Source: a virus
Length of the DNA stretch: 40,535 nt
IMG/VR virus record: IMGVR_UViG_3300042401_000459
Coordinates: 1-40,535 of that record
Strand: one strand, 5' to 3'
Part shown: positions 2,731 to 37,875 of the stretch, in pieces
Position numbering within the stretch: the first letter of the stretch is position 1
Layout of the letters: each line of letters starts with the position of its first letter
Notes under the pieces: model-generated
Told to the model about the DNA's origin: nothing
The model's database searches: none
What the model saw: the letters and a program-made list of their open reading frames with translations, nothing else
Made by a program: the position numbers and the translations under genes

Positions 2731-2806
2731 AACTTTTTTTTTAAAAAGATCGCACATTCGCCGAATGAAGAAAATAAGAAAGTTAGATCCCTTTATTTAT
2801 GATTGA
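2702..2806 (+). CDS. Small basic ORF (34 aa) between SGNH and carbamoyltransferase genes
   Basis: This ATG-started 34-codon ORF starts inside the last 29 bases of the SGNH gene and its stop overlaps the carbamoyltransferase ATG (ATGATTGA), so it fills the junction with no spacer. The peptide is very basic (about a third Lys/Arg) and ends LDPFIYD. In bacterial carbamoyltransferase operons this slot often holds a roughly 50-residue DUF5989 membrane protein with a basic N-terminus and, as I recall it, a similar APFIY-type end; here the membrane segment is missing. The position and both overlaps argue that it is translated, but homology to DUF5989 is only a suggestion. Confidence 0.4.
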   Translation: MIKLLIQKIKTFFLKRSHIRRMKKIRKLDPFIYD

Positions 2807-4223
2807 ATGGGGAATCTCTGCTAACGCACATGATGCTGCTCTGACTGTTGTCGGTGGCAGAGAAATCTTGTTCGCGTCCAGTTCAGAACGGTACAGCGGA
2901 ATAAAAAATGATAAACATATCAATCAAGAAATAATCGACACTGCATTGAAGTTTGGTAAACCAGAGATAATTCACTGGTATGAGAAACCTAAACTTCGAG
3001 CAATGCGCAGACTACTTACTGGACAAGGATTTACTCGTTTCAGTGTTCAGCAGTATCTAAAAGACTTTGGGGTAGATGTTCCTGTCCAGTCTAGCAATCA
3101 CCATGAATCGCATACTGCTGCAGGATTCTACACTTCAACATTCAAATCGGCAACTGCTCTAGTAATTGATGCTATTGGTGAATTTGATACTGCATCTATT
3201 TGGACTTGTCACGACAATAACCTGAAGAAAAAGTGGTCTATGGATTATCCCAAGTCGTTGGGATTATTCTATTCAGCAATGACAGATCGCGCTGGATTGA
3301 AACCAAACGAAGACGAATACATTCTAATGGGTATGGCAGCATATGGTGTCAAACAACGCTACTACGAAGAGATTCTTGGATTGTGGGAAAAAGAAAATCT
3401 ACATCGCGGTTGTAAGTGGTGGAGACTAGACGATGATCCACATCCATACGACATCGCTGCTGCTACTCAACAGATATATGAAGAAGAATTTGAAAAACTA
3501 CTTCTTCGTGCCAAAAAGATAGACCCAACGCAAAATAATCTAGTGTTATCAGGGGGTTGCGCACTTAACTGCTCTGCGAATCATATCGCACTAAAGTATT
3601 TCAAGAACGTCTGGATTATGCCAAATCCTGGAGACGCAGGAAGTAGTCTGGGTGCTATCGCAGCAAACAATCGTAAGAAGTTAAACTGGACTGGACCATA
3701 TCTCGGTGAAAATATCGAGGGTGAATATCCTGTAGAAAATCTATTGACTTATCTTAAAAAAGACGGTATAGTGGGTGTTGCAAATGGACGAGCAGAGTTT
3801 GGTCCACGTGCGTTAGGCAATCGTAGTTTGTTAGCAGATCCAACGAGACATGATATCAAGGATAAAGTCAATGAGATTAAGCGAAGACAAAAGTTTCGAC
3901 CATTTTCCCCCGTCATTATGGCAGAATATGCAGCAGACTATTTTGACATGCCATCTTCGGCATCCCCTTATATGCAATTTACTTCAAGATGTAAATATCC
4001 TGATCAATTTCCTGCTATTGTCCACGCTGATGGCACAAGTCGTGTCCAGACCGTAACTAAAGAGCAGCATCCTGGATTGTATCGACTATTAGAACGATGG
4101 TTAGAAGAAACAGGTTGTCCAATGTTACTTAATACAAGTTTGAACATCAAAGGGTTTCCAATGGTAAATAATCGCAAGGACGCTGATATGTTCTATGGAT
4201 TATACCGAGTAAAGGTCTTTTAA
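2799..4223 (+). CDS. Carbamoyltransferase (NodU/CmcH/TobZ family)
   Basis: A 474-residue enzyme of the family that forms carbamoyl-adenylate from carbamoyl phosphate and ATP and transfers the carbamoyl group to a hydroxyl. Visible family motifs are SNHHESHTAAGFY (metal and substrate binding, about residues 99-111), VLSGGCALNCSAN (nucleotide-binding Kae1-like domain, about residue 250), NPGDAGSSLGA, and the C-terminal GRAEFGPRALGNRSLLADP that defines the carbamoyl-phosphate domain. MLLNTSLNIKGFP near the C-terminus is also typical. It is somewhat shorter than many bacterial members (about 550-600 residues). It is the last gene of an overlapping four- to five-gene unit with radical SAM and SGNH proteins. 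The acceptor is unknown; a glycan, a nucleotide or a modified base are all possible. Confidence 0.9.
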   Translation: MIEWGISANAHDAALTVVGGREILFASSSERYSGIKNDKHINQEIIDTALKFGKPEIIHWYEKPKLRAMRRLLTGQGFTRFSVQQYLKDFGVDVPVQSSNHHESHTAAGFYTSTFKSATALVIDAIGEFDTASIWTCHDNNLKKKWSMDYPKSLGLFYSAMTDRAGLKPNEDEYILMGMAAYGVKQRYYEEILGLWEKENLHRGCKWWRLDDDPHPYDIAAATQQIYEEEFEKLLLRAKKIDPTQNNLVLSGGCALNCSANHIALKYFKNVWIMPNPGDAGSSLGAIAANNRKKLNWTGPYLGENIEGEYPVENLLTYLKKDGIVGVANGRAEFGPRALGNRSLLADPTRHDIKDKVNEIKRRQKFRPFSPVIMAEYAADYFDMPSSASPYMQFTSRCKYPDQFPAIVHADGTSRVQTVTKEQHPGLYRLLERWLEETGCPMLLNTSLNIKGFPMVNNRKDADMFYGLYRVKVF

Positions 4224-4522: not shown

Positions 4523-5062
4523 ATGAATATTTTTTACCTTGACAATAACGTCAAAACTTGTGCCGAATATCACAACGACAAACATGTCGTCAAGATGATT
4601 CTAGAGTATGCACAACTACTTTCAACTGCTCATCGTGTCCTTGATGGTAATGAATACATTGATGCCTCTTCGGGGCGACGCATAAAACGTTGGCGTCTTG
4701 GCAATGAGAGTATGGAGAATATGCTTTACAAGGCATCGCACATTAACCATCCCAGTGCTATTTGGGTTCGGCAGTCTAATAATAATTACAATTGGTTGAT
4801 GTGTTTGTTTCAAGATCTTTTACAGGAATATACGCATCGCTATGGTAAGATCCATGCGACTGATCGCCTAGTATACTGGTTGCGCCAACCTCCTGCCAAT
4901 ATTCCTGTTGGTTATTTCACACAACCAACTCCTGCTATGCCTGATGAATACAAAGTTCCTGACTCTATTCAGTCGTATCGGAACTATTATATCGGTGCAA
5001 AAAAAACTATGGCAAAATGGAAAAATCGCCCGATTCCGGAGTGGTGGAGCGTCGCAAGTTAA
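4523..5062 (+). CDS. Conserved T4-like phage protein of unknown function, 179 aa
   Basis: Starts MNIFYLDNNVKTCAEYHNDKHVVKMILEYAQLL. From memory, an N-terminus of this kind (acidic residue, then CDKHVVKMI-like helix with His/Lys) recurs in marine T4-type phages as a conserved hypothetical protein. The conserved NDKHVVKM histidine and lysine, a later INHPSAIWVR segment and a C-terminal KKTMAKWKNR with PIPEWW look like functional surface elements, perhaps nucleic-acid binding, but no catalytic family is recognisable. It follows the 92-residue gene by 6 bases and precedes an intergenic region with a late-promoter-like octamer and a terminator. I give no functional name. Confidence 0.65.
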   Translation: MNIFYLDNNVKTCAEYHNDKHVVKMILEYAQLLSTAHRVLDGNEYIDASSGRRIKRWRLGNESMENMLYKASHINHPSAIWVRQSNNNYNWLMCLFQDLLQEYTHRYGKIHATDRLVYWLRQPPANIPVGYFTQPTPAMPDEYKVPDSIQSYRNYYIGAKKTMAKWKNRPIPEWWSVAS

Positions 5063-5068
5063 TAAATA
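5061..5068 (+). promoter_or_regulatory. Candidate late promoter (AATAAATA)
   Basis: A NATAAATA match overlapping the end of the preceding gene. It ends 5 bases before an ATG at 5074 that opens an 18-codon ORF, and a rho-independent terminator follows at 5131-5164. Together these would define a transcript of about 90 bases. Confidence 0.35.
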
Positions 5069-5073
5069 CTTGT

Positions 5074-5130
5074 ATGGAACAAACAAGAACTCCCATCCCG
5101 ATTTTAGATTCCGATGTCCTCGGAAATTAG
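5074..5130 (+). CDS. Possible 18-residue microprotein ORF
   Basis: The ORF reads M-E-Q-T-R-T-P-I-P-I-L-D-S-D-V-L-G-N and stops on the base before the terminator stem begins. It has no ribosome binding site, but an AATAAATA element sits 5 bases upstream, the same spacing as other start codons in this phage that lack a Shine-Dalgarno sequence. The 3' half overlaps a perfect 6-bp hairpin (5109-5125), so the transcript might instead be a structured small RNA. Low confidence either way. Confidence 0.2.
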   Translation: MEQTRTPIPILDSDVLGN

Positions 5131-5164
5131 AGGCGACTCCACCTTATTGTGGCGTCGCCTTTTT
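5131..5164 (+). terminator. Rho-independent terminator upstream of phoH
   Basis: The stem AGGCGAC-T-CCAC pairs with GTGG-C-GTCGCCT (11 pairs, one T/C mismatch), with loop CTTATT, and is followed by TTTT. It ends transcription of the upstream block about 30 bases before the phoH start codon. Confidence 0.85.
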
Positions 5165-5196
5165 CGTATCAACCCTAGAAAAATAAGGACTGCGAA

Positions 5197-5955
5197 ATGG
5201 CGCGAAGAAAACAAAATAACCTACAACTCGTCACCCCACCACCTGCCACATTTATTCAGGAGAGAAGTTCAAAATGCAAAGTTACACAAAATGATCTTAA
5301 AACAATCAATCCTCTAACTGAAAATCAAAGAAAGTTTTTTGAATTATTTGACAAGCAAGCATCCGCAGTCCTACTACATGGTGTCGCTGGCACTGGTAAA
5401 ACCTTTATCGCATTATATAAAGCACTTGAAGAAGTATTAGAAGATAACAATAAATTTGAGAGAGTGATCATTGTTCGTTCCGCTGTTCCTTCGCGTGAAA
5501 TTGGTCATCTTCCAGGAGATGAGAAAGAAAAGACAGAAGTTTACACGTTACCATATGTTGAAATTTGTGAAGATCTGTTTAATCATATTCAACCCTTTGT
5601 TCGTCTACAAGAACAAAAAGTTATTCACTTTTTAATCACATCATTCGTTCGTGGTATCACTCTAGACAATTCAATTGTAATCGTCGATGAATGTCAGAAT
5701 ATGACAGACATGGAACTCAATTCTGTTATGACTCGTATTGGCAAGAACTCAAAAGTTATTTTCTGCGGAGACTTCCGTCAAACTGACCTATATAAGAAGA
5801 ACGATATGTCTGGATTGCAAAAATTCCTTGCGATTACTGACATTATGCCATCGTTCAATACCATCGAATTTAATGTAGACGATATTGTTAGATCTAAACT
5901 GGTGAAAGAATATATAGTTGCACGGTTAGAATATGAGAGTCGTCACGCAGCATAG
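5197..5955 (+). CDS. phoH: PhoH-like ATPase
   Basis: A 252-residue P-loop protein. Walker A is GVAGTGKT at residues 62-69 and Walker B is IVIVDECQN with Asp164-Glu165, both in the arrangement of the PhoH family. That family is widespread in marine phages, and its biochemical role (an RNA helicase/NTPase-like activity has been proposed) is not settled. The ATG at 5197 has AAGGA 7 bases upstream. A terminator lies just upstream, so phoH must be read from its own promoter, which I could not identify, or by readthrough. The first about 30 residues are basic and low in complexity. The next gene follows after 12 bases with its own AAAGGA site. Confidence 0.92.
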   Translation: MARRKQNNLQLVTPPPATFIQERSSKCKVTQNDLKTINPLTENQRKFFELFDKQASAVLLHGVAGTGKTFIALYKALEEVLEDNNKFERVIIVRSAVPSREIGHLPGDEKEKTEVYTLPYVEICEDLFNHIQPFVRLQEQKVIHFLITSFVRGITLDNSIVIVDECQNMTDMELNSVMTRIGKNSKVIFCGDFRQTDLYKKNDMSGLQKFLAITDIMPSFNTIEFNVDDIVRSKLVKEYIVARLEYESRHAA

Positions 5956-6288: not shown

Positions 6289-6966
6289 ATGTTTAAAACG
6301 ATATATGATTATAAAGATTTCGCTCAGTCAACTACGAACGAAGATGGTAGCAGAGTTTACGTTAATGCCTCTGGTGTAGCGTATCCTTCTGCTACCACCG
6401 TTCTTTCTGTATTAAGTCGAGACGGAATTGCCAAATGGCGTGCTCGTGTTGGTGCTGAAGAAGCAGATAAAATCTCTAACAAGGCATCCACCCGTGGAAC
6501 CAAGATTCACTCTTTAACAGAGACATATCTCAAAAACGAAGATCTAAAAGAAGCGTATACGAGTACAAACGCATCTTTGCTTGACCTTGAGATGTTCAAG
6601 AAATTTCTACCCATTCTTGATCCCATCAGTAATATACATTGTCAAGAACTTGCTTTGTATAGCGACCATCTGCGCATGGCAGGTCGAGTTGACTGTATCG
6701 CCGAGTATAACGGTCAACGAGCAGTCATTGACTTTAAAACCTCAGGTAGACTGAAGAAGAAGGAACATATCAGTTCCTACTTTATGCAGACTGCTGCTTA
6801 TGCAATTATGTATGAAGAACGCACAAGTATTCCTGTTCCTAACCTTGTAATTCTGATCGCAGTTGAAGATGAAGAACCACAGGTGTTCATTGAGAAACGT
6901 GATAACTGGGCAAAGGAATTGCTTAGAACTCGTGATTATTATGAAAATGGTTACTATTTAACTTGA
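6289..6966 (+). CDS. PD-(D/E)XK nuclease (RecB/Cas4-like exonuclease)
   Basis: A 225-residue nuclease. After the YPSATTVLS opening motif common to this group come His74 (RGTKIHSLTE), Glu120, Asp135 in GRVDCIAE, and Asp148-Phe-Lys150 in VIDFKTS, which together form the PD-(D/E)XK metal site. Gln167-x3-Tyr171 (QTAAYA) is the RecB-family QxxxY motif. It probably degrades or processes DNA during phage replication or recombination. No ribosome binding site precedes the ATG, and the promoter TATAAT ends 5 bases before it, so the mRNA may be leaderless. No alternative start codon occurs in the first 35 codons. The tmRNA promoter overlaps its end. Confidence 0.85.
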   Translation: MFKTIYDYKDFAQSTTNEDGSRVYVNASGVAYPSATTVLSVLSRDGIAKWRARVGAEEADKISNKASTRGTKIHSLTETYLKNEDLKEAYTSTNASLLDLEMFKKFLPILDPISNIHCQELALYSDHLRMAGRVDCIAEYNGQRAVIDFKTSGRLKKKEHISSYFMQTAAYAIMYEERTSIPVPNLVILIAVEDEEPQVFIEKRDNWAKELLRTRDYYENGYYLT

Positions 6967-6993
6967 CTTCTGAAGAAAACTATAGTATAAATA
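6963..6993 (+). promoter_or_regulatory. Combined early (sigma70) and late promoter of the tmRNA gene
   Basis: TTGACT (6963-6968) with a 17-base spacer leads to TATAAA (6986-6991), and the same bases extend to TATAAATA (6986-6993), the T4 late -10 element. Both modes predict a start at about 6998-6999, just before the acceptor piece of the tmRNA. The sequence TTGACTT...TATAGTATAA is shared with the promoter at 6255. Confidence 0.7.
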
Positions 6994-6998
6994 TAATA

Positions 6999-7426
6999 TC
7001 AGTTGTTGACAAAGACTGAAAAGTTCTAAGGACTCGGGGGCAGTACCCGACGCCTCCACCATAGACACACAGATCAAGTCCTTAGCGGGATAAGATCAAA
7101 GTTTAATGATGTAAGTTTGGAAAACAGAAGTACAATGTTTTCTATAGACAGATCGGGCATTAAACACAATAAAGTCAACGACCGATACGGGCGTGTGTCT
7201 ATGATGGGGGCGAACTAGGATCGACTGGAACACAATAGGAAATTCGAGACTGATTGACTGGCAAAGTGCCATAAAAAGTAAATGCAAACGATAACGTTGC
7301 CTTTGCGCTTGCTGCGTAAGCAGTAAGTCATTGGGTTTTCGGCGGTTTCCCTCGAAACAGAATAAACCGCCAACCGTTCTAATTTAGAGTTGAAACGAGA
7401 CTATCAACGGTCTCAAAACCCTAAAT
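6999..7426 (+). ncRNA. ssrA: tmRNA, circularly permuted two-piece type
   Basis: Order in the gene is acceptor piece, intervening loop, coding piece. Acceptor piece: T-arm at 7034-7050 (TCGGG / 7-base loop / CCCGA), then CGCCTCC (7051-7057) and ACCA (7058-7061). Coding piece: GGGGGCG (7206-7212) pairs with CGCCTCC to give the 7-bp acceptor stem with G3-U70, the alanyl-tRNA synthetase identity pair; GAACTAGGATCGACTGG matches the conserved tmRNA 5' region. The resume codon GCA is at 7284; the tag ANDNVAFALAA ends with TAA at 7317-7319. Downstream are pseudoknot-capable repeats (7337-7370 and 7389-7414). Tagged proteins would be degraded through the LAA end. The permuted layout and ANDN tag are typical of Alphaproteobacteria. 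The outer ends are estimates. Confidence 0.92.
7061..7202 (+). repeat. Inverted repeat closing the tmRNA precursor loop
   Basis: ATAGACACAC (7061-7070) and GTGTGTCTAT (7193-7202) are perfect 10-base inverted repeats that continue the acceptor stem into the excised segment. In the precursor they would hold the two tmRNA pieces together before processing. The intervening segment (7062-7205, 144 bases) contains no convincing gene. Confidence 0.75.
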
Positions 7427-7451
7427 ATAATGCACCTCCAAGGAAAAGTGC

Positions 7452-7483
7452 CCAGTGTAGGGAGTCACTGGTTAATCCTCTCT
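7452..7483 (+). promoter_or_regulatory. Predicted pseudoknot in the leader of the endolysin gene
   Basis: CCAGTG (7452-7457) pairs with CACTGG (7466-7471); the loop bases AGGGAG (7459-7464) can pair with CTCTCT (7478-7483), giving an H-type pseudoknot. It lies between the tmRNA coding piece and the ribosome binding site GAGGA at 7499-7503. It may be a last pseudoknot of the tmRNA or a leader element of the lysis gene. Confidence 0.4.
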
Positions 7484-7510
7484 CCAGTTTAACAATCCGA
7501 GGAATAGTAA

Positions 7511-8110
7511 ATGCCTTCCTTTAATAAGAAGACATTGAAAATTCTTTCTTCAATTTTACTGATATTTGTAATATATTGTGTAGTTTTAAGTTATGCAAAA
7601 GAAAGAATCGAAGACACCGCAATGGCACACACTGTCGGTGGATATGAAAAAGTCCAAAGCGTAAAAAAACAACAAGAAGAAATAATCCAAAAAAACATTA
7701 AAAAAGAAAAAAGGAAGTACCTGTCAAGCAACGCAAAAGCAATAACATGCCTTGCTGATAATATTTACTACGAGGCAGGTAATGAACCAAGGAATGGTAA
7801 AATCGCGGTTGCTGGTGTAACAATGAATCGTGCACGCAATCCCAAATTCCCATCAAACGTTTGCTCTGTCGTTTATCAGAGAACAAGTAGGGTCTGTCAG
7901 TTTAGTTGGACATGTATGCGCCGACCTGCTAAAGACCCAGTATTATATGCTGAAGCAAAAGATATTGCGAAAAAAGTATTGACTTCCGAGATCAATACGC
8001 GTATAGTTGTTAATAAGGACGTTCTATTCTACCACGCAGACTATGTTAGTCCAGGGTGGAAGTTACAGAGGGTTACTAAAATCGGTAGACATATTTTTTA
8101 CGCAGGATAG
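7511..8110 (+). CDS. SleB-type cell wall hydrolase (membrane-anchored endolysin)
   Basis: A 199-residue protein. Residues 10-28 form a hydrophobic segment after a basic N-terminus (signal-anchor or SAR-type signal), followed by a Lys/Glu-rich stalk to about residue 70. The catalytic domain starts with CLADNIYYEAGNEP, where Glu88 in YYEA is the conserved residue of the SleB/Hydrolase_2 family. GKIAVAGVTMNRA and CQFSWTCM are also family motifs. The family cleaves peptidoglycan glycan strands. The N-terminal segment suggests export by the host Sec system, as for SAR endolysins. Starts at ATG 7511 with GAGGA 7 bases upstream. It sits just after the tmRNA gene, and gp33 starts 3 bases after its stop. 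Confidence 0.85.
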   Translation: MPSFNKKTLKILSSILLIFVIYCVVLSYAKERIEDTAMAHTVGGYEKVQSVKKQQEEIIQKNIKKEKRKYLSSNAKAITCLADNIYYEAGNEPRNGKIAVAGVTMNRARNPKFPSNVCSVVYQRTSRVCQFSWTCMRRPAKDPVLYAEAKDIAKKVLTSEINTRIVVNKDVLFYHADYVSPGWKLQRVTKIGRHIFYAG

Positions 8111-31524: not shown

Positions 31525-34500
31525 ATGGCACTCGACTTAAATTTATCTCCGTATTATGACGACTTCAATGAATCTAAAAAGTTTCATAGAATTCTCTTCA
31601 AACCAGGATATGCTGTTCAGGCACGCGAACTTACGCAACTACAGTCTATCCTGCAAAATCAGGTTAATAAGTTTGGTGATCATATTTTCAAGAATGGCGC
31701 GATCGTTTCGGGTTGCGACGTTCAGATTGATAATGAATTATCATATGTAAAGATTGATGCAAACGCTGCGGGAAATGCGTCACTTCCATCGTATATCGGT
31801 GCTACAGTTGAGGGTAGTAACGGTCTTAAAGCGGTAATCGTAGATGCAGTCGATGCAACAGCATCTGATCCAGGAACTCTTTACCTAAGATATACCAGTG
31901 GTGATGGTAGCACAAATACCGTTCACTTCATTGGAACAGAAACTCTTACAGTTGTGTCAGATAATGTATCTTATGATGGGGATGAATTTACTGTTCAAGC
32001 ACTTGAAGTTGACACCGAAGTATTGACAAATAACTATTGGGGTCGTGCTACTCGTATGACTCTTGGTGACGGTATTCTTTATATCGACGGTAAGTTTGTT
32101 CTCCATACTTCTCAGACAATCTATCTTTCAAAGTATACACACAATCCATCAGGTAGTGTGTGTGTTGCAGCAGACGAACAAAATATAGACTCTGGTGATG
32201 ATGAAACTCTGCTTGATCCAGCACAGGGCACATATAATTTTACTGCTCCTGGTGCAGATAGATACTATGTCTCAACTTTGTTGAAGTTCTTTGCAGCTGG
32301 TACTGTAATCGATGACGGATATTATGAGGTTGCTACTGTCGTTCTTGGTGGACTCAATAGAACACATACTTCTGACATCTATGCTAAACTCGGCGACAAT
32401 CTAGCACGTAGAACATATGACGAGTCGGGTAACTATACAGTAAAGTCATTCCCTGTTCTGGTTCGTGAACACCTTGATGACACTACAAACAATGGACTCT
32501 ATACTGAGGAACTTGGTGGTAGTACTGATCTGCTTGCTGTCGGTTTAGAGGCAGGCAAGGCATATGTTCGCGGTTATGAGTATGAAACTCGCCAGACAGA
32601 ATATGCCTTTACTGAAAAAGGTATCGACACTGTAAAGAAATATAGCGTTCCTATTAGTTCTGCCTATGGTAACTATGTTGTTGTGACAGACTATAAGGGT
32701 GTTCTGCCACTAGATGGTTCTAAGATTTCTCTGCGTGATGCAGCGCAAAACGGTGTTTCTGGTTCACAGACAGCAGCACAAGGTAGCGAAATCGGTAGCG
32801 CACGTGTTCGTCACATCGAGTATGTGAGTGGAACTGTTGGATCTGCTGCAGCAGTTTATAACATCTATGTCTATGATGTTCAAATGACAACAGGCAACTT
32901 CGCTGATGTTGATGGTTTATATTACTCAACTAGCGGAACCAAGGATGGTTATGCCGACGTTGTAGAATCTGTATTGAAGTCGGCACAATACAATAAACTT
33001 CTCTATAGAATGCCATCGCGTGCTACTAAAACAATCAGACCTGCTCCTTCTGGTAACTACGAAACATCTCTATATTATACTAAAGTGTATACGGGTGTTT
33101 CTATTACTTCAGGCGCTGGTAGTATTACTCTGTCTGGTAATGAGTTCTTTATTCAAAATACCGATGATGCGATTGAGTCTTATATCAACAACAATCTGTT
33201 GATGGTAAGAGACACTGATGGTGAAATTATTGATCTGACGACAGGCACAGTTGATGCACTAGATGCTTCTGCTCAAATTCTCAGTTTTACTGCTCTAGAA
33301 GACAGTGGTAGTTCTGTATTCACTGATACCGTTACCATATATGCTACGGTTGAAGTAAACCTCGCGGCACCTCTTGTCAAAACTCTTAACAGAGCGAGAT
33401 ATGTTGCGTTTGACCTGTCTCATAAAATTCTTGCTTCTGCAGTAGATGTTTCCACTGAAACATTTACATATACTGCTCACGGATATTCTTCTGGTGATGC
33501 TGTAGTATATTACAATGGTGGCGGTACAAGTGTTGCAGGATTGACAAGTGGAACTACATATTACGTAATTTCTGCTGGATTAACTGCTAATGCCTTTAGA
33601 GTATCAGCATCATCAGGCGGTAGTGCGGTTAATCTTACAGGAACAGGTAACGATCTTCAGTACTTCTTCAAGGTCGGTGGCGGAACGTCATTAAATCTTG
33701 GTGTTGCAGATATATTCTCTGTTGATGCTGTTTATAAGGCAGCAGTTGGAACTTCTTACTCAAATATCGTAACAACTGGCACGGATATTGCTTCACAATA
33801 TACTTTAGATAATGGTCAGCGTGATAATACGTACGAACTCGGTAAACTTACTGCAGTCAATGGGGCTGCTTCTCTCGCTGGATTCAATCTAGTTGCTAAG
33901 ATTAGTTACTTCACTCATACGGAAACTGCATCTACTGCTGGTTACTTCGCAGTTGATTCGTATCCTGTTAACGACGCAGTTGTTGGTGGTGGTAATATCA
34001 AAACATACGAGATTCCGATCTACACATCGACTACAACTGGTGAGTCGTATGATCTTCGTGATACCCTCGACTTTAGAATAAGAATTACTGACTCGATTAC
34101 TCCTGTTACCTTTGCGTCTATCGCTTCGGTTCCAGTAAATCCTGTAGTATCGACAACAGTTGATCCTGCTTCTTTTGGTCTCACTATTCCTAGACCCGAA
34201 CAAGAAATCAATATCAATTACGAATATTATGTTGGTCGTAAAGATAAGATCGTATTGGATGACAATGGTGTGTTCTCTGCTGTAAGCGGAACTCCATCAC
34301 TGACTCCAGTTGAACCGCTTACTCCTGAAAACGCAATGTGTATTGCCATTGTTACAATCCCACCATTTCCATCTCTTGCTCCTAATGTTGCTAAGTCAAC
34401 TGGACGCAATGAATATGGTGTAACTTTCCGCACTCTTGATAATCGTCGTTACACAATGCGTGATATCGGCGGAATTGCGCAACGTATTACTCGTTTGGAA

Positions 34501-37500
34501 TACTACACTTCTCTGACTCTTCTCGAAAAGTCAACTGAATCACTGTTCATTCCTAGTGCAACAGACCCAACGCTAAATAGATTTAAGCATGGTATTCTGG
34601 TAGATGCGTTTACTGGTCACAACGTTGGCAATCCAAAAGATCTCAACTATAGTTGCTCTATTGACGCAATCAATCAAGAACTTCGTCCGTTCTTTAATAT
34701 TGAGAATGTCGACCTGATTTTTGATTCGGTAAATTCTCTTGGTGTAAAGAAAACAGGTGATCTATTAACACTTCCATATAACTATACAGTTCTTACTCAG
34801 AATACATTTGCTTCTAAGTCAAGAAACTGTGTAGGCGATCTGCTGTTCTCTTTCATTGGTGACATGACTCTCGATCCTCCTGTTGATAACTGGACTGATA
34901 CTGCACAAAGTCCCGATCTCGCTGTAAACTTCGACGGTAACTACGACAACTTTGCTGCGATGGCAAATTCTTGGGGGACTCAGTGGAATGATTGGCAGGA
35001 TATCGTAACTGGTCGTTCTGTCTCCACTGACACAACCAGTACTGGTGGACAGACTCGCGTATCTGGTGATACGTTATTCCAAGATCAAATTCAGATTTCA
35101 ACTACTACCACTACACAGCGCCAAACTCGCCAAGGTGTGACTATGACTGTCACACCCGAAACTATCACAAGAGATCTTGGTGATCGTGTAACAAATGCTT
35201 CTATCATTCCATATATGAGAAGCGTTACAATTACTGTTAAGTGCAAGAGACTGAAACCAGCGACTAGAATTTATCCATTCTTCGACGGTATTGATGTTAC
35301 AGCACATTGTCGTCCACTATTAAGTGCTGCCCTTGCAGCATCACCAACCGATCCCGCAGAATATTCTCAATATGCTATCACAAATGGTACGGGTGATTAT
35401 GGTGATTCGTTAATTACTGATGCGGACGGAGAACTTGCAATTCAGTTTAGAATTCCTGCTGGTACGTTTAGAACAGGAACTAAGAATTTCAGAGTTTGCG
35501 ATGATCCGTTTAACAGATCTGCATTCGTCACAACCTCTGCGACAAATTCGTTCTCTGCCAATGGTCTCTCGCAAGTTGTCCAAGGAACTGTTGTTTCTAC
35601 AAGAGAGGCAAATGTTGCGTTTAATACTGTAAGCGATTCTCGCTCTGTAACTGAAAGCAATACTACTGCAAATCGTATTGGTGAAAGAGCAGTCGGGGTT
35701 GTTCAGAATACCACGGTAAACAATACGTTTACTACAGTTAATAATACCACAAACGTTTCTAATACTACCAATAACACAACTGTTGTTAATGAAACCAATG
35801 TCATCAACACTGTGGTTAATGCCATTACGAATGTAAATGAAACTAATATTACCAATAATCCAGTTATTGTTATTGAGAGAGAAATTCCAGTTGTAGTACT
35901 TGTAACGCCACCTGAGGAACTACCACCACCGCCAACAGTTCCTGAGGACTCAGGTCCACCTTCAGAAGCAGTCTTTATTGAACCAGGTGACTTTGGCGAT
36001 TTTGGGATCGACATGCTTGGAAATAATTGGGGCACTTCTCTGCGGGGAGGAGTCTTTTCCATGGGAGGAATGGATCCACTCGCACAAAGTTTCTTTGTCA
36101 ATGGAATGCCATTCGGAACATTTGTAACTGGTCTGGACGTATACTTCAGAACTAAGGGAACTGCGCCAATCACCCTGCAACTTCGTGAGATGATTAATGG
36201 ATTCCCGACAGAGAAGGTTCTTCCTTTCGGCGAAGTTACCAAAACTGCAGACGAGGTTGCCACTTCGACTGAGGATGCCGATGGTGTTGTGACATTCTCT
36301 GACACGAATTTTACATTCCCATCGCCTGTTTATCTACAGAATAATACGGAATACTGTTTCGTTCTTCTACCTGCTGGTAACGATCCTGGATATACTGCAT
36401 GGGTTTCGGAAATCGGCGAAAATGAAGTAGGTACTTCTAAGAGAATTTCAGAGCAACCAAATGTTGGTATGTTGTTTACTTCAGCAAACAATCGCACTTG
36501 GAGCGAAAAGCAAGCAGAAGATATGAAGTTTACTTTGTATCGCGCAATCTTTGATACATCCGTTATCTCGACTGCTAAGTTCCAGAATTCTAACTATGAC
36601 TATCTTGCGCTCTCGGATGTTATGTATCTTGCTGCTGATGATACTGTTTCGGCATCCAAGTTTGCTGCAGGCGAGAAGGTTTACGTAGAAGGATCTGAGT
36701 CAACTAAGTATGGTTATGTAAAGCAATACGATCCTCTGTATAATGTTCTGAAGATTGTCGTTCAAGAAGGCGCATTCGCTGCTGCTGATACAATCACCAA
36801 CGGGACAATTTACACTACCGTCGCTGAAGTTGAAAATAAACTGATCAACTCTATCCAAACCAATATCGGTTATATGGACTTCACACCAACTACAGGCGTC
36901 TGGAGTTATGCTAAAACTGCAACTGGTGCTGCTGCTGGAGGAACTACGTTCGAACGTCTAACGTTTGGTGAAACAAATGACATCCCAACAGAAGCAGCGA
37001 TTTATTCGAAGTCAAATGAGACTGCTGATCTTGATGGGGATAAGTCACTAAACATTCGTTTTGGTATGAAGACAATGACTGACACGGTTTCTCCTGTGAT
37101 CGATCTTAGAAAGTGTTCGTTGATCTGTATTTCAAATTATATTAACGCTTATGAAGCTGCTGCCGCAATTGTAACTACTGCTGGTACGTTGACGGGTCTA
37201 TCATATGCAACTACAACAGCAGGCATTCCTGGCACTCTTGCTGCTACTGTAGCAACAAGCGGAACTGCTGGTGAGTTTACTTGTGGTGCATCAACTCTAG
37301 CAGTTGGTAGTCGTGTTACAATTACTGGTACTCTTGCAGGTACAGGCGCTATTACTGGTTATACAACTGGAACAACATATAAGGTTTCTGCTGTGACTGG
37401 GTCATCACCGAACGTTACTGGATTTACTCTAACGACTACTGGTACAAGCGAAGAGAACAACGCTGGAACTGCAAGTTCTAAGTATATCTCGCGTCGGGTT

Positions 37501-37875
37501 AATCTAGAAAATAACGCAGAAGATTTGAAGGTCTATCTGAGCAATTATCTACCAACAGGAACCTCAGCGAAAGTATATGCTAAGTTGCAGAATCCGTCTG
37601 ATTCTAGAAACTTTGACGATCTTGATTGGGTAGAACTAGAGACGAGCGTATCGCCACTAAGTTCTACTGCCGCTGCTGGATTCGTTGAGTATGAATATAA
37701 AATACCAAATGCAAATAAAGTTGGTAGCGTAGAAGATGGTGAATTTACATACACCTATTCGGGAGCGACTTATACCACATATAACACAATGGCGATTAAG
37801 ATTGTTATGTTCTCTACAAATAGTTCTGTTGTTCCTAAGTTTAAGGAACTAAGAGCAATCGCGTTGCAGATATAA
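31525..37875 (+). CDS. Giant baseplate protein, DUF4815 N-terminus, gp10-like position
   Basis: 2116 residues. The N-terminus (LNLSPYYDDFNESKKFHRILFKPGYAVQARELTQLQSILQNQVNKFGDHIFKNGAIVSG) is the DUF4815 signature of large structural proteins in marine T4-like phages. Middle regions repeat beta modules, one shared with gp8 at about residues 635-715. Residues about 1392-1450 are an Asn/Thr/Val tract (NTTVNNTFTTVNNTTNVSN and onward), followed by a Pro hinge (about 1462-1478). Then comes MGGMDPLAQSFFVNGMPFGTFVTGLDVYFRTKG, a conserved block I associate with outer-wedge proteins. A second gp8-shared module lies at 1879-1972. AGTAGGA precedes the ATG. It probably replaces T4 gp10 and neighbours at the baseplate rim. 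Confidence 0.75.
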   Translation: MALDLNLSPYYDDFNESKKFHRILFKPGYAVQARELTQLQSILQNQVNKFGDHIFKNGAIVSGCDVQIDNELSYVKIDANAAGNASLPSYIGATVEGSNGLKAVIVDAVDATASDPGTLYLRYTSGDGSTNTVHFIGTETLTVVSDNVSYDGDEFTVQALEVDTEVLTNNYWGRATRMTLGDGILYIDGKFVLHTSQTIYLSKYTHNPSGSVCVAADEQNIDSGDDETLLDPAQGTYNFTAPGADRYYVSTLLKFFAAGTVIDDGYYEVATVVLGGLNRTHTSDIYAKLGDNLARRTYDESGNYTVKSFPVLVREHLDDTTNNGLYTEELGGSTDLLAVGLEAGKAYVRGYEYETRQTEYAFTEKGIDTVKKYSVPISSAYGNYVVVTDYKGVLPLDGSKISLRDAAQNGVSGSQTAAQGSEIGSARVRHIEYVSGTVGSAAAVYNIYVYDVQMTTGNFADVDGLYYSTSGTKDGYADVVESVLKSAQYNKLLYRMPSRATKTIRPAPSGNYETSLYYTKVYTGVSITSGAGSITLSGNEFFIQNTDDAIESYINNNLLMVRDTDGEIIDLTTGTVDALDASAQILSFTALEDSGSSVFTDTVTIYATVEVNLAAPLVKTLNRARYVAFDLSHKILASAVDVSTETFTYTAHGYSSGDAVVYYNGGGTSVAGLTSGTTYYVISAGLTANAFRVSASSGGSAVNLTGTGNDLQYFFKVGGGTSLNLGVADIFSVDAVYKAAVGTSYSNIVTTGTDIASQYTLDNGQRDNTYELGKLTAVNGAASLAGFNLVAKISYFTHTETASTAGYFAVDSYPVNDAVVGGGNIKTYEIPIYTSTTTGESYDLRDTLDFRIRITDSITPVTFASIASVPVNPVVSTTVDPASFGLTIPRPEQEININYEYYVGRKDKIVLDDNGVFSAVSGTPSLTPVEPLTPENAMCIAIVTIPPFPSLAPNVAKSTGRNEYGVTFRTLDNRRYTMRDIGGIAQRITRLEYYTSLTLLEKSTESLFIPSATDPTLNRFKHGILVDAFTGHNVGNPKDLNYSCSIDAINQELRPFFNIENVDLIFDSVNSLGVKKTGDLLTLPYNYTVLTQNTFASKSRNCVGDLLFSFIGDMTLDPPVDNWTDTAQSPDLAVNFDGNYDNFAAMANSWGTQWNDWQDIVTGRSVSTDTTSTGGQTRVSGDTLFQDQIQISTTTTTQRQTRQGVTMTVTPETITRDLGDRVTNASIIPYMRSVTITVKCKRLKPATRIYPFFDGIDVTAHCRPLLSAALAASPTDPAEYSQYAITNGTGDYGDSLITDADGELAIQFRIPAGTFRTGTKNFRVCDDPFNRSAFVTTSATNSFSANGLSQVVQGTVVSTREANVAFNTVSDSRSVTESNTTANRIGERAVGVVQNTTVNNTFTTVNNTTNVSNTTNNTTVVNETNVINTVVNAITNVNETNITNNPVIVIEREIPVVVLVTPPEELPPPPTVPEDSGPPSEAVFIEPGDFGDFGIDMLGNNWGTSLRGGVFSMGGMDPLAQSFFVNGMPFGTFVTGLDVYFRTKGTAPITLQLREMINGFPTEKVLPFGEVTKTADEVATSTEDADGVVTFSDTNFTFPSPVYLQNNTEYCFVLLPAGNDPGYTAWVSEIGENEVGTSKRISEQPNVGMLFTSANNRTWSEKQAEDMKFTLYRAIFDTSVISTAKFQNSNYDYLALSDVMYLAADDTVSASKFAAGEKVYVEGSESTKYGYVKQYDPLYNVLKIVVQEGAFAAADTITNGTIYTTVAEVENKLINSIQTNIGYMDFTPTTGVWSYAKTATGAAAGGTTFERLTFGETNDIPTEAAIYSKSNETADLDGDKSLNIRFGMKTMTDTVSPVIDLRKCSLICISNYINAYEAAAAIVTTAGTLTGLSYATTTAGIPGTLAATVATSGTAGEFTCGASTLAVGSRVTITGTLAGTGAITGYTTGTTYKVSAVTGSSPNVTGFTLTTTGTSEENNAGTASSKYISRRVNLENNAEDLKVYLSNYLPTGTSAKVYAKLQNPSDSRNFDDLDWVELETSVSPLSSTAAAGFVEYEYKIPNANKVGSVEDGEFTYTYSGATYTTYNTMAIKIVMFSTNSSVVPKFKELRAIALQI
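37162..37440 (+). repeat. Module shared with gp8 (copy in the 2116-aa gene)
   Basis: Encodes AAIVTTAGTLTGLSY then ATVATSG...FTCG...TGYTTGTTYKVSAVTG, about 80% identical by eye at DNA level to 30361-30609 but circularly permuted in order, pointing to duplication or recombination between the two baseplate genes. Confidence 0.8.

Follow-up and report, generated by a model that had tools for sequence, protein, structure and literature searches.

A circularly permuted two-piece tmRNA gene in a T4-like viral fragment and the variable spacers of its phage relatives

The stretch of viral DNA analysed here, a 40.5-kb fragment (40,535 nt, hereafter the window), carries an ssrA (tmRNA) gene that is complete and circularly permuted, at positions 6998-7372 (+); the parts of its locus, including the genes on either side, lie on the same strand. 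One gene was reported in the window by ARAGORN, a permuted tmRNA at 6969-7410 with its coding part at 7284-7319, and in a cmscan search alpha_tmRNA (RF01849) matched 6959-7371 at 117 bits (gathering score 50; E 1.9e-31) and tmRNA_permuted (RF04321) matched at 98.3 bits (threshold 47; E 4e-18), both scores being far above chance. The preliminary description, made from the letters of the sequence, had named the covariance-model search beforehand as the test that could refute a tmRNA; it brought no refutation, and the RF01849 match agrees with the permuted, alphaproteobacterial type proposed there. We consider it very probable that the gene is a functional ssrA of a T4-like freshwater phage, acting in trans-translation with host factors and thereby recovering ribosomes. 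Gene anatomy, conservation, covariation, a promoter motif and the lack of SmpB in related contigs were observed and support this, and the role in ribosome rescue and tagging would follow from membership in the tmRNA family.

The anatomy of the gene is that of two pieces encoded in inverted order. The acceptor piece (6998-7061, 64 nt), delimited by the cmscan alignment and the 3' tRNA domain of ARAGORN, is most likely the mature form, its 5' end being placed from the -10 box. It holds the P2 5' strand AUCAGU (6998-7003), the T-arm UCGGG-GGCAGUA-CCCGA (7034-7050) with the alpha-type T-loop GGCAGUA, and the acceptor 3' strand CGCCUCC plus ACCA (7051-7061), the last two read from the sequence. The coding piece, delimited by cmscan and the 5' tRNA domain of ARAGORN, runs from 7206 to about 7372 (~167 nt) and opens with the acceptor 5' strand GGGGGCG (7206-7212), which forms 7 bp with the 3' strand. 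The acceptor with its CCA is thus encoded 5' of the coding piece, and the stem includes a G3-U70 pair, the discriminator being A73; the placement of a T-arm and CCA ahead of the coding piece and the 7-bp stem with G3-U70 had both been noticed earlier, and they are present as described. Within the coding piece we read the D-region UAGGAUCGAC (7216-7225) and the P2 3' strand ACUGAU (7249-7254), which can pair with AUCAGU of the acceptor piece and, like it, is nearly invariant in the clade. The resume and tag region (7277-7319) is likewise read from the sequence, and its reading frame GCA..UAA (7284-7319) encodes ANDNVAFALAA, the tag first proposed and now confirmed by ARAGORN.

An H-type pseudoknot follows at 7334-7371, with S1 GGG/CCU and S2 GGCGGUUU (7341-7348)/AAACCGCC (7364-7371). 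In an alignment of 34 relatives its covariation was 0.395 as compared with 0.188 in shuffles (0/500), both sides had changed in seven of the eight S2 pairs, and the signal peaked at slide 0 and dropped once the partner was slid. The pseudoknot that had been expected downstream of the tag is therefore real by covariation, but not in its full proposed extent, as the repeats at 7372-7426 are not shared by more distant relatives. Repeats 7372-7416 were considered as a further tmRNA pseudoknot and rejected on this loss, and the repeats up to 7426 are part of the gap that precedes the next gene. A hairpin (GAGAC-loop-GUCUC, 7397-7414) lies in that gap, outside the mature tmRNA, and is present in the close clade and absent from more distant relatives. 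Since both conservation and the Rfam model end at the first pseudoknot (7371), we put the coding piece at ~167 nt; of the two pieces of about 60 and 220 nt predicted earlier, the second is too long.

The gene begins directly past the stop (6966) of a PDDEXK exonuclease (6289-6966; PHROG 298, E 4e-71), and on its other side lie genes for a cell wall hydrolase (endolysin; 7511-8110; PHROG 938, E 2.5e-19), gp33 and gp59. Other T4-like proteins of the window comprise PhoH, gp32, head closure and neck proteins, the tail tube, and the baseplate hub and wedge. Such gene content across the contig, together with synteny in relatives, bears out the claim that the tmRNA is phage-encoded. Annotated phages gave no near match; many of the closest contigs are presumably from freshwater lakes, judged by their metagenome numbers. 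Beside the replication genes, at 15-1897 and 2799-4223, the window further encodes a Nol-like carbamoyltransferase and two proteins of the radical SAM type, and in the structural gene region a 2116-residue protein of PHROG 358 (31525-37875). We give hardly any credence to the gene being a mere passenger, either left behind by an integration event at the ssrA of a host or derived from contaminating bacterial DNA. It is true that prophages commonly integrate at ssrA and that relatives of the L125/L126 type combine a 3-nt spacer with divergent tRNA-like domains, but the present gene is complete, its structure covaries, its tag is conserved, its locus is fixed in many phages, the contig is T4-like throughout, and no integrase was found among the window proteins scanned.

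Directly upstream, a sigma70-type promoter TTGACT-N17-TATAAA (6963-6991) is the sole exact match in the window (with one mismatch allowed, 3 were found and 1.7 expected). This observation is further strengthened by the relatives, as a promoter of at least 10/12 lies just upstream of the tmRNA in 73% of 56 relatives compared with 4% of shuffles, with a spacing of 17 nt in 37. The -10 overlaps a T4-late-like TATAAATA (6986-6993). A T4-late promoter as sole driver was rejected; loci L137, L138 and L141 lack TATAAATA yet keep TTGACA-N17-TATATA, and the sigma70-type reading is therefore preferred. A second late-promoter-like motif, CTAAATA (7421-7427), precedes the cell wall hydrolase gene and recurs at this position in close relatives; the motif shows no enrichment over the whole window, and it might conceivably act as a late promoter. 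The early-type promoter, together with the LAA degron of the tag, also suits an alternative proposed for the Methylophilales phage Melnitz (PMC9004378), in which the tmRNA mainly destroys host proteins early and recycles their amino acids rather than rescuing ribosomes. We regard this as unlikely here, as a tmRNA acts on any stalled nascent chain with no known selectivity for host proteins, the host already has an ssrA, and the overlapping TATAAATA could also allow late expression.

Relatives were collected as 107 loci from exonuclease and gp59 searches, and most of them contain a permuted tmRNA by ARAGORN. It lies near the exonuclease in at least 49 of the 67 relatives that have at least 2 kb of downstream sequence, and the gene is common in the clade of the window. 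The view that tmRNA genes are uncommon in phages consequently holds among isolates, where they occur in 402 of 18,146 genomes with 53 two-piece structures (PMC9004378), but not in the present group. Tags of the close clade are mostly ANDNVAFALAA or ANDNVAFAGYALAA, and within one tag type the codon differences among relatives are synonymous only, the last codons varying under a constant peptide. Across 150 viral permuted tmRNAs the tag ends in LAA in 138 and in another -AA in 11 (AA in 149/150), and G3-U70 with A73 is found in 26 of 27 distinct viral acceptors. The tag stem ANDNVAFA occurs in the tmRNA of a few genomes of the scanned bacterial and archaeal collection, the permuted ones among these tmRNAs being alphaproteobacterial and ending in VAA or AAAA. 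What counts against the preferred explanation is that none of the cellular genomes scanned carries the exact tag ANDNVAFALAA, so that a fit to the SmpB and AlaRS of a particular host would have to be presumed, and that the record is a fragment of 40.5 kb.

SmpB was detected in 10 of 14 control genomes and in none of 12 related contigs (the longest 171 kb, possibly incomplete), so the tmRNA would have to rely on SmpB of the host. The same finding would fit a decoy role, in which the phage RNA ties up the SmpB of the host or competes with its tmRNA and so damps trans-translation. Such an effect is cited for phage DS6A, whose tag-less tmRNA-like RNA was expressed in E. coli (PMC11915505). We nevertheless hold a decoy to be very unlikely, because the full conserved tag frame and pseudoknot are needless for one and the DS6A form differs. 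Within the clade, the gene itself also varies by domain. The L125-L135 group shares 83-89% identity with the window in the mRNA domain, but in the tRNA-like domain, which is usually the most conserved portion of a tmRNA, identity falls to 67-69%. One phage clade holds three tRNA-like domain types, which indicates module exchange and points to a mosaic tmRNA gene.

From these features we infer expression, processing, charging and a benefit to the phage along the following lines. Host RNA polymerase would transcribe a single precursor from the sigma70-type promoter, and the acceptor strands would be brought together by a helix that extends the acceptor stem beyond the CCA end, well into the intervening spacer. 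Host tRNA-processing enzymes would remove this spacer, with RNase P cutting at G7206 and 3' processing after the CCA at 7061, leaving the 64-nt acceptor and the ~167-nt coding piece held together by the acceptor stem and P2. The RNA would be charged with alanine by host AlaRS through G3-U70 and delivered to stalled ribosomes by host SmpB and EF-Tu, and the stalled product would gain A+ANDNVAFALAA, a ClpXP-type degron. The benefit would most likely be the release of ribosomes stalled on mRNAs that are cleaved as the phage takes over the host.

The excised spacer (7062-7205, 144 nt) has arms UAGACACAC (7062-7070) and GUGUGUCUA (7193-7201) that, together with a leader UGAU (7202-7205), extend the acceptor stem. 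Its predicted fold is -60.3 kcal/mol (z -7.2), and the inner part alone gives z -2.1. It is a singleton among the spacers of the set, found no match to phages by blastn and contains no Shine-Dalgarno (SD)-led ORF. Viral spacers range from 3 to 247 nt (117 distinct), compared with 5-53 nt in 49 distinct cellular ones, a small set partly biased to high scores. The idea that long spacers occur only in phages was rejected, as bacterial spacers of 165 and 232 nt exist. At the lower extreme, L125, L126, L218 and L221 have a spacer of 3 nt (CCA-UAU-GGGGG), which prompts one to ask how their CCA ends are released. A sealing helix, defined as at least 8 of 14 pairs prolonging the acceptor stem, is present in 94% of distinct viral spacers of at least 30 nt, and it covaries, with A-U, G-C, U-A and C-G interchanging at given positions among distinct viral segments. 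As a phage-only rule it is weakened, since 72% of bacterial spacers of at least 30 nt also reach this number of pairs. The leader TGAT occurs in 68% of viral and 2% of bacterial spacers, the bacterial set again having the limits of size and score bias given above. Near-identical or related spacers lie between differing tRNA-like domains (L127/L161, L133/L212 and L149/L167/L205), and one such shared spacer, searched in the viral collection, was found in tmRNA genes only (10/10). Hence the viral spacer is hypervariable and is swapped independently of the flanking tRNA-like domain.

Spacers of other phages carry recognisable contents. ARAGORN found no intact tRNA within a spacer, and in the literature permuted spacers are described with single cases of a tRNA and of a repeat (PMC11915505), no protein genes being mentioned in the literature searched. 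A nearly invariant core of about 52 nt, GTCAGCACTGTGGGAAGCGCAGATAGACAATACTAG...GTTCGAATC, with a variable, compensated closing stem and a T-loop-like GTTCGAAT, lies in the spacers of five tmRNAs (L149, L167, L205, L319 and L339) and also in tRNA arrays (L322, L323, L325, L332 and many other viral contigs); against Rfam it gave no match at E up to 5. A Cys-rich ORF (MVICSC...FCCGTC) was found in 18 viral contigs, for example at L129:2281-2457 and L136:5721-5894. Its SD follows directly after the CCA, and it is flanked by both spacer markers, CCA and GATGGGGG, in 16 of the 18 and by one marker only in the other two. Mean pS is 0.277 and pN 0.030 (pN/pS 0.11). The protein has no family match in Pfam, PHROGs, NCBIfam or PDB, where a suspected resemblance to bacterioferritin-associated ferredoxin was likewise unsupported, and its AlphaFold model (pLDDT 58) was too poor for a structure search.

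More broadly, 32% of the 44 distinct spacers with a length of 90 nt or more contain an SD-led ORF of at least 40 codons, compared with 0.2% of shuffles, and two further spacer-ORF families have pN/pS of 0.04 and 0.33-0.56. A motif scan found 39 distinct SD-ATG sites past the CCA inside ARAGORN tmRNAs, 22 of these 39 ORFs ending exactly at the TGA of TGATGGG; the scan motif itself selects for SD and ATG, and the 32% and 0.2% figures are independent of it. Many of these ORFs encode peptides of 21-48 residues with one hydrophobic stretch each, and the predicted folds place the SD and start for the most part inside the sealing helix. Small ORFs spanning the spacer from an SD after the CCA to the leader TGA are seen in L056, L060, L104, L181, L191, L392, L415, L417, L430, L447, L489 and others. 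ORF enrichment and the pN/pS range of 0.04-0.56 lend good support to nested protein genes in the spacers of relatives.

We are evenly divided on a wider interpretation, in which the phage spacer would be a cargo bay with sealed ends, housing exchanged RNAs or small genes, and in which spacer translation and tmRNA folding would be mutually exclusive. The SD of a spacer ORF would be locked in the helix that continues the acceptor stem, its stop would often be the TGA of TGAT, and ribosome availability might then set tmRNA output. The spacer of the window would be RNA-type cargo or an empty loop. This segment has long been viewed as waste of tmRNA maturation. In phages it proves to be a site where small RNAs and small protein genes are kept and exchanged, which makes it a new place for finding small phage proteins and offers a way to test how translation might be linked to the maturation of tmRNA. 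The gene itself suggests that phages retain a working ribosome-rescue RNA dependent on host SmpB.

Compared with known systems, the gene shares with the Caulobacter-type permuted ssrA (RF01849) its gene order, tRNA-like domain, resume sequence and post-tag pseudoknot. Cellular members score mostly ~195-313 bits among those listed from a class-wide sample, and at 117 bits, well under most of them, the tmRNA of the window has therefore diverged. Its 144-nt spacer is longer than most sampled cellular ones (5-53 nt, 49 distinct), although cellular spacers reach 232 nt. From the general tRNA-like-domain model RF04321 it does not differ in essentials. To our knowledge, the tmRNAs of mycobacteriophages are one-piece. 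Mycobacterium phage Lethe carries a tmRNA, as the window does (PMC13097058), and the tmRNA-like RNA of DS6A is also phage-carried but lacks a tag frame (PMC11915505). Closest are Melnitz (MZ577095-98) and the Pelagibacter phage Mosig, which like the window combine an alpha-type permuted two-piece tmRNA with a T4-like genome (PMC9004378). Melnitz ssrA is the best annotated match, with 75.8% identity over only 39% coverage, and resembles the gene of the window in lying near a PDDEXK nuclease, gp33 and gp59, in its ANDN..LAA tag (ANDNYVPVDYALAA compared with ANDNVAFALAA) and in having a TGAT leader and, at 142 nt, a long spacer. A glutamine riboswitch is reported in the 3' part of Melnitz ssrA (PMC9004378); in the window, 6900-7600 gave no Rfam match to one at E up to 1, and the candidate was dropped. 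The spacer of the Melnitz ssrA gene (L122, gene at 4986-5438) also holds an unannotated SD-led ORF, MFKWLSKTRLVVITRDYF..., which that of the window lacks. Two-piece phage tmRNAs are thus already known from Melnitz and Mosig; the window contains another such gene, and with it a freshwater T4-like clade in which tmRNA is common joins the short list of phages that carry them.
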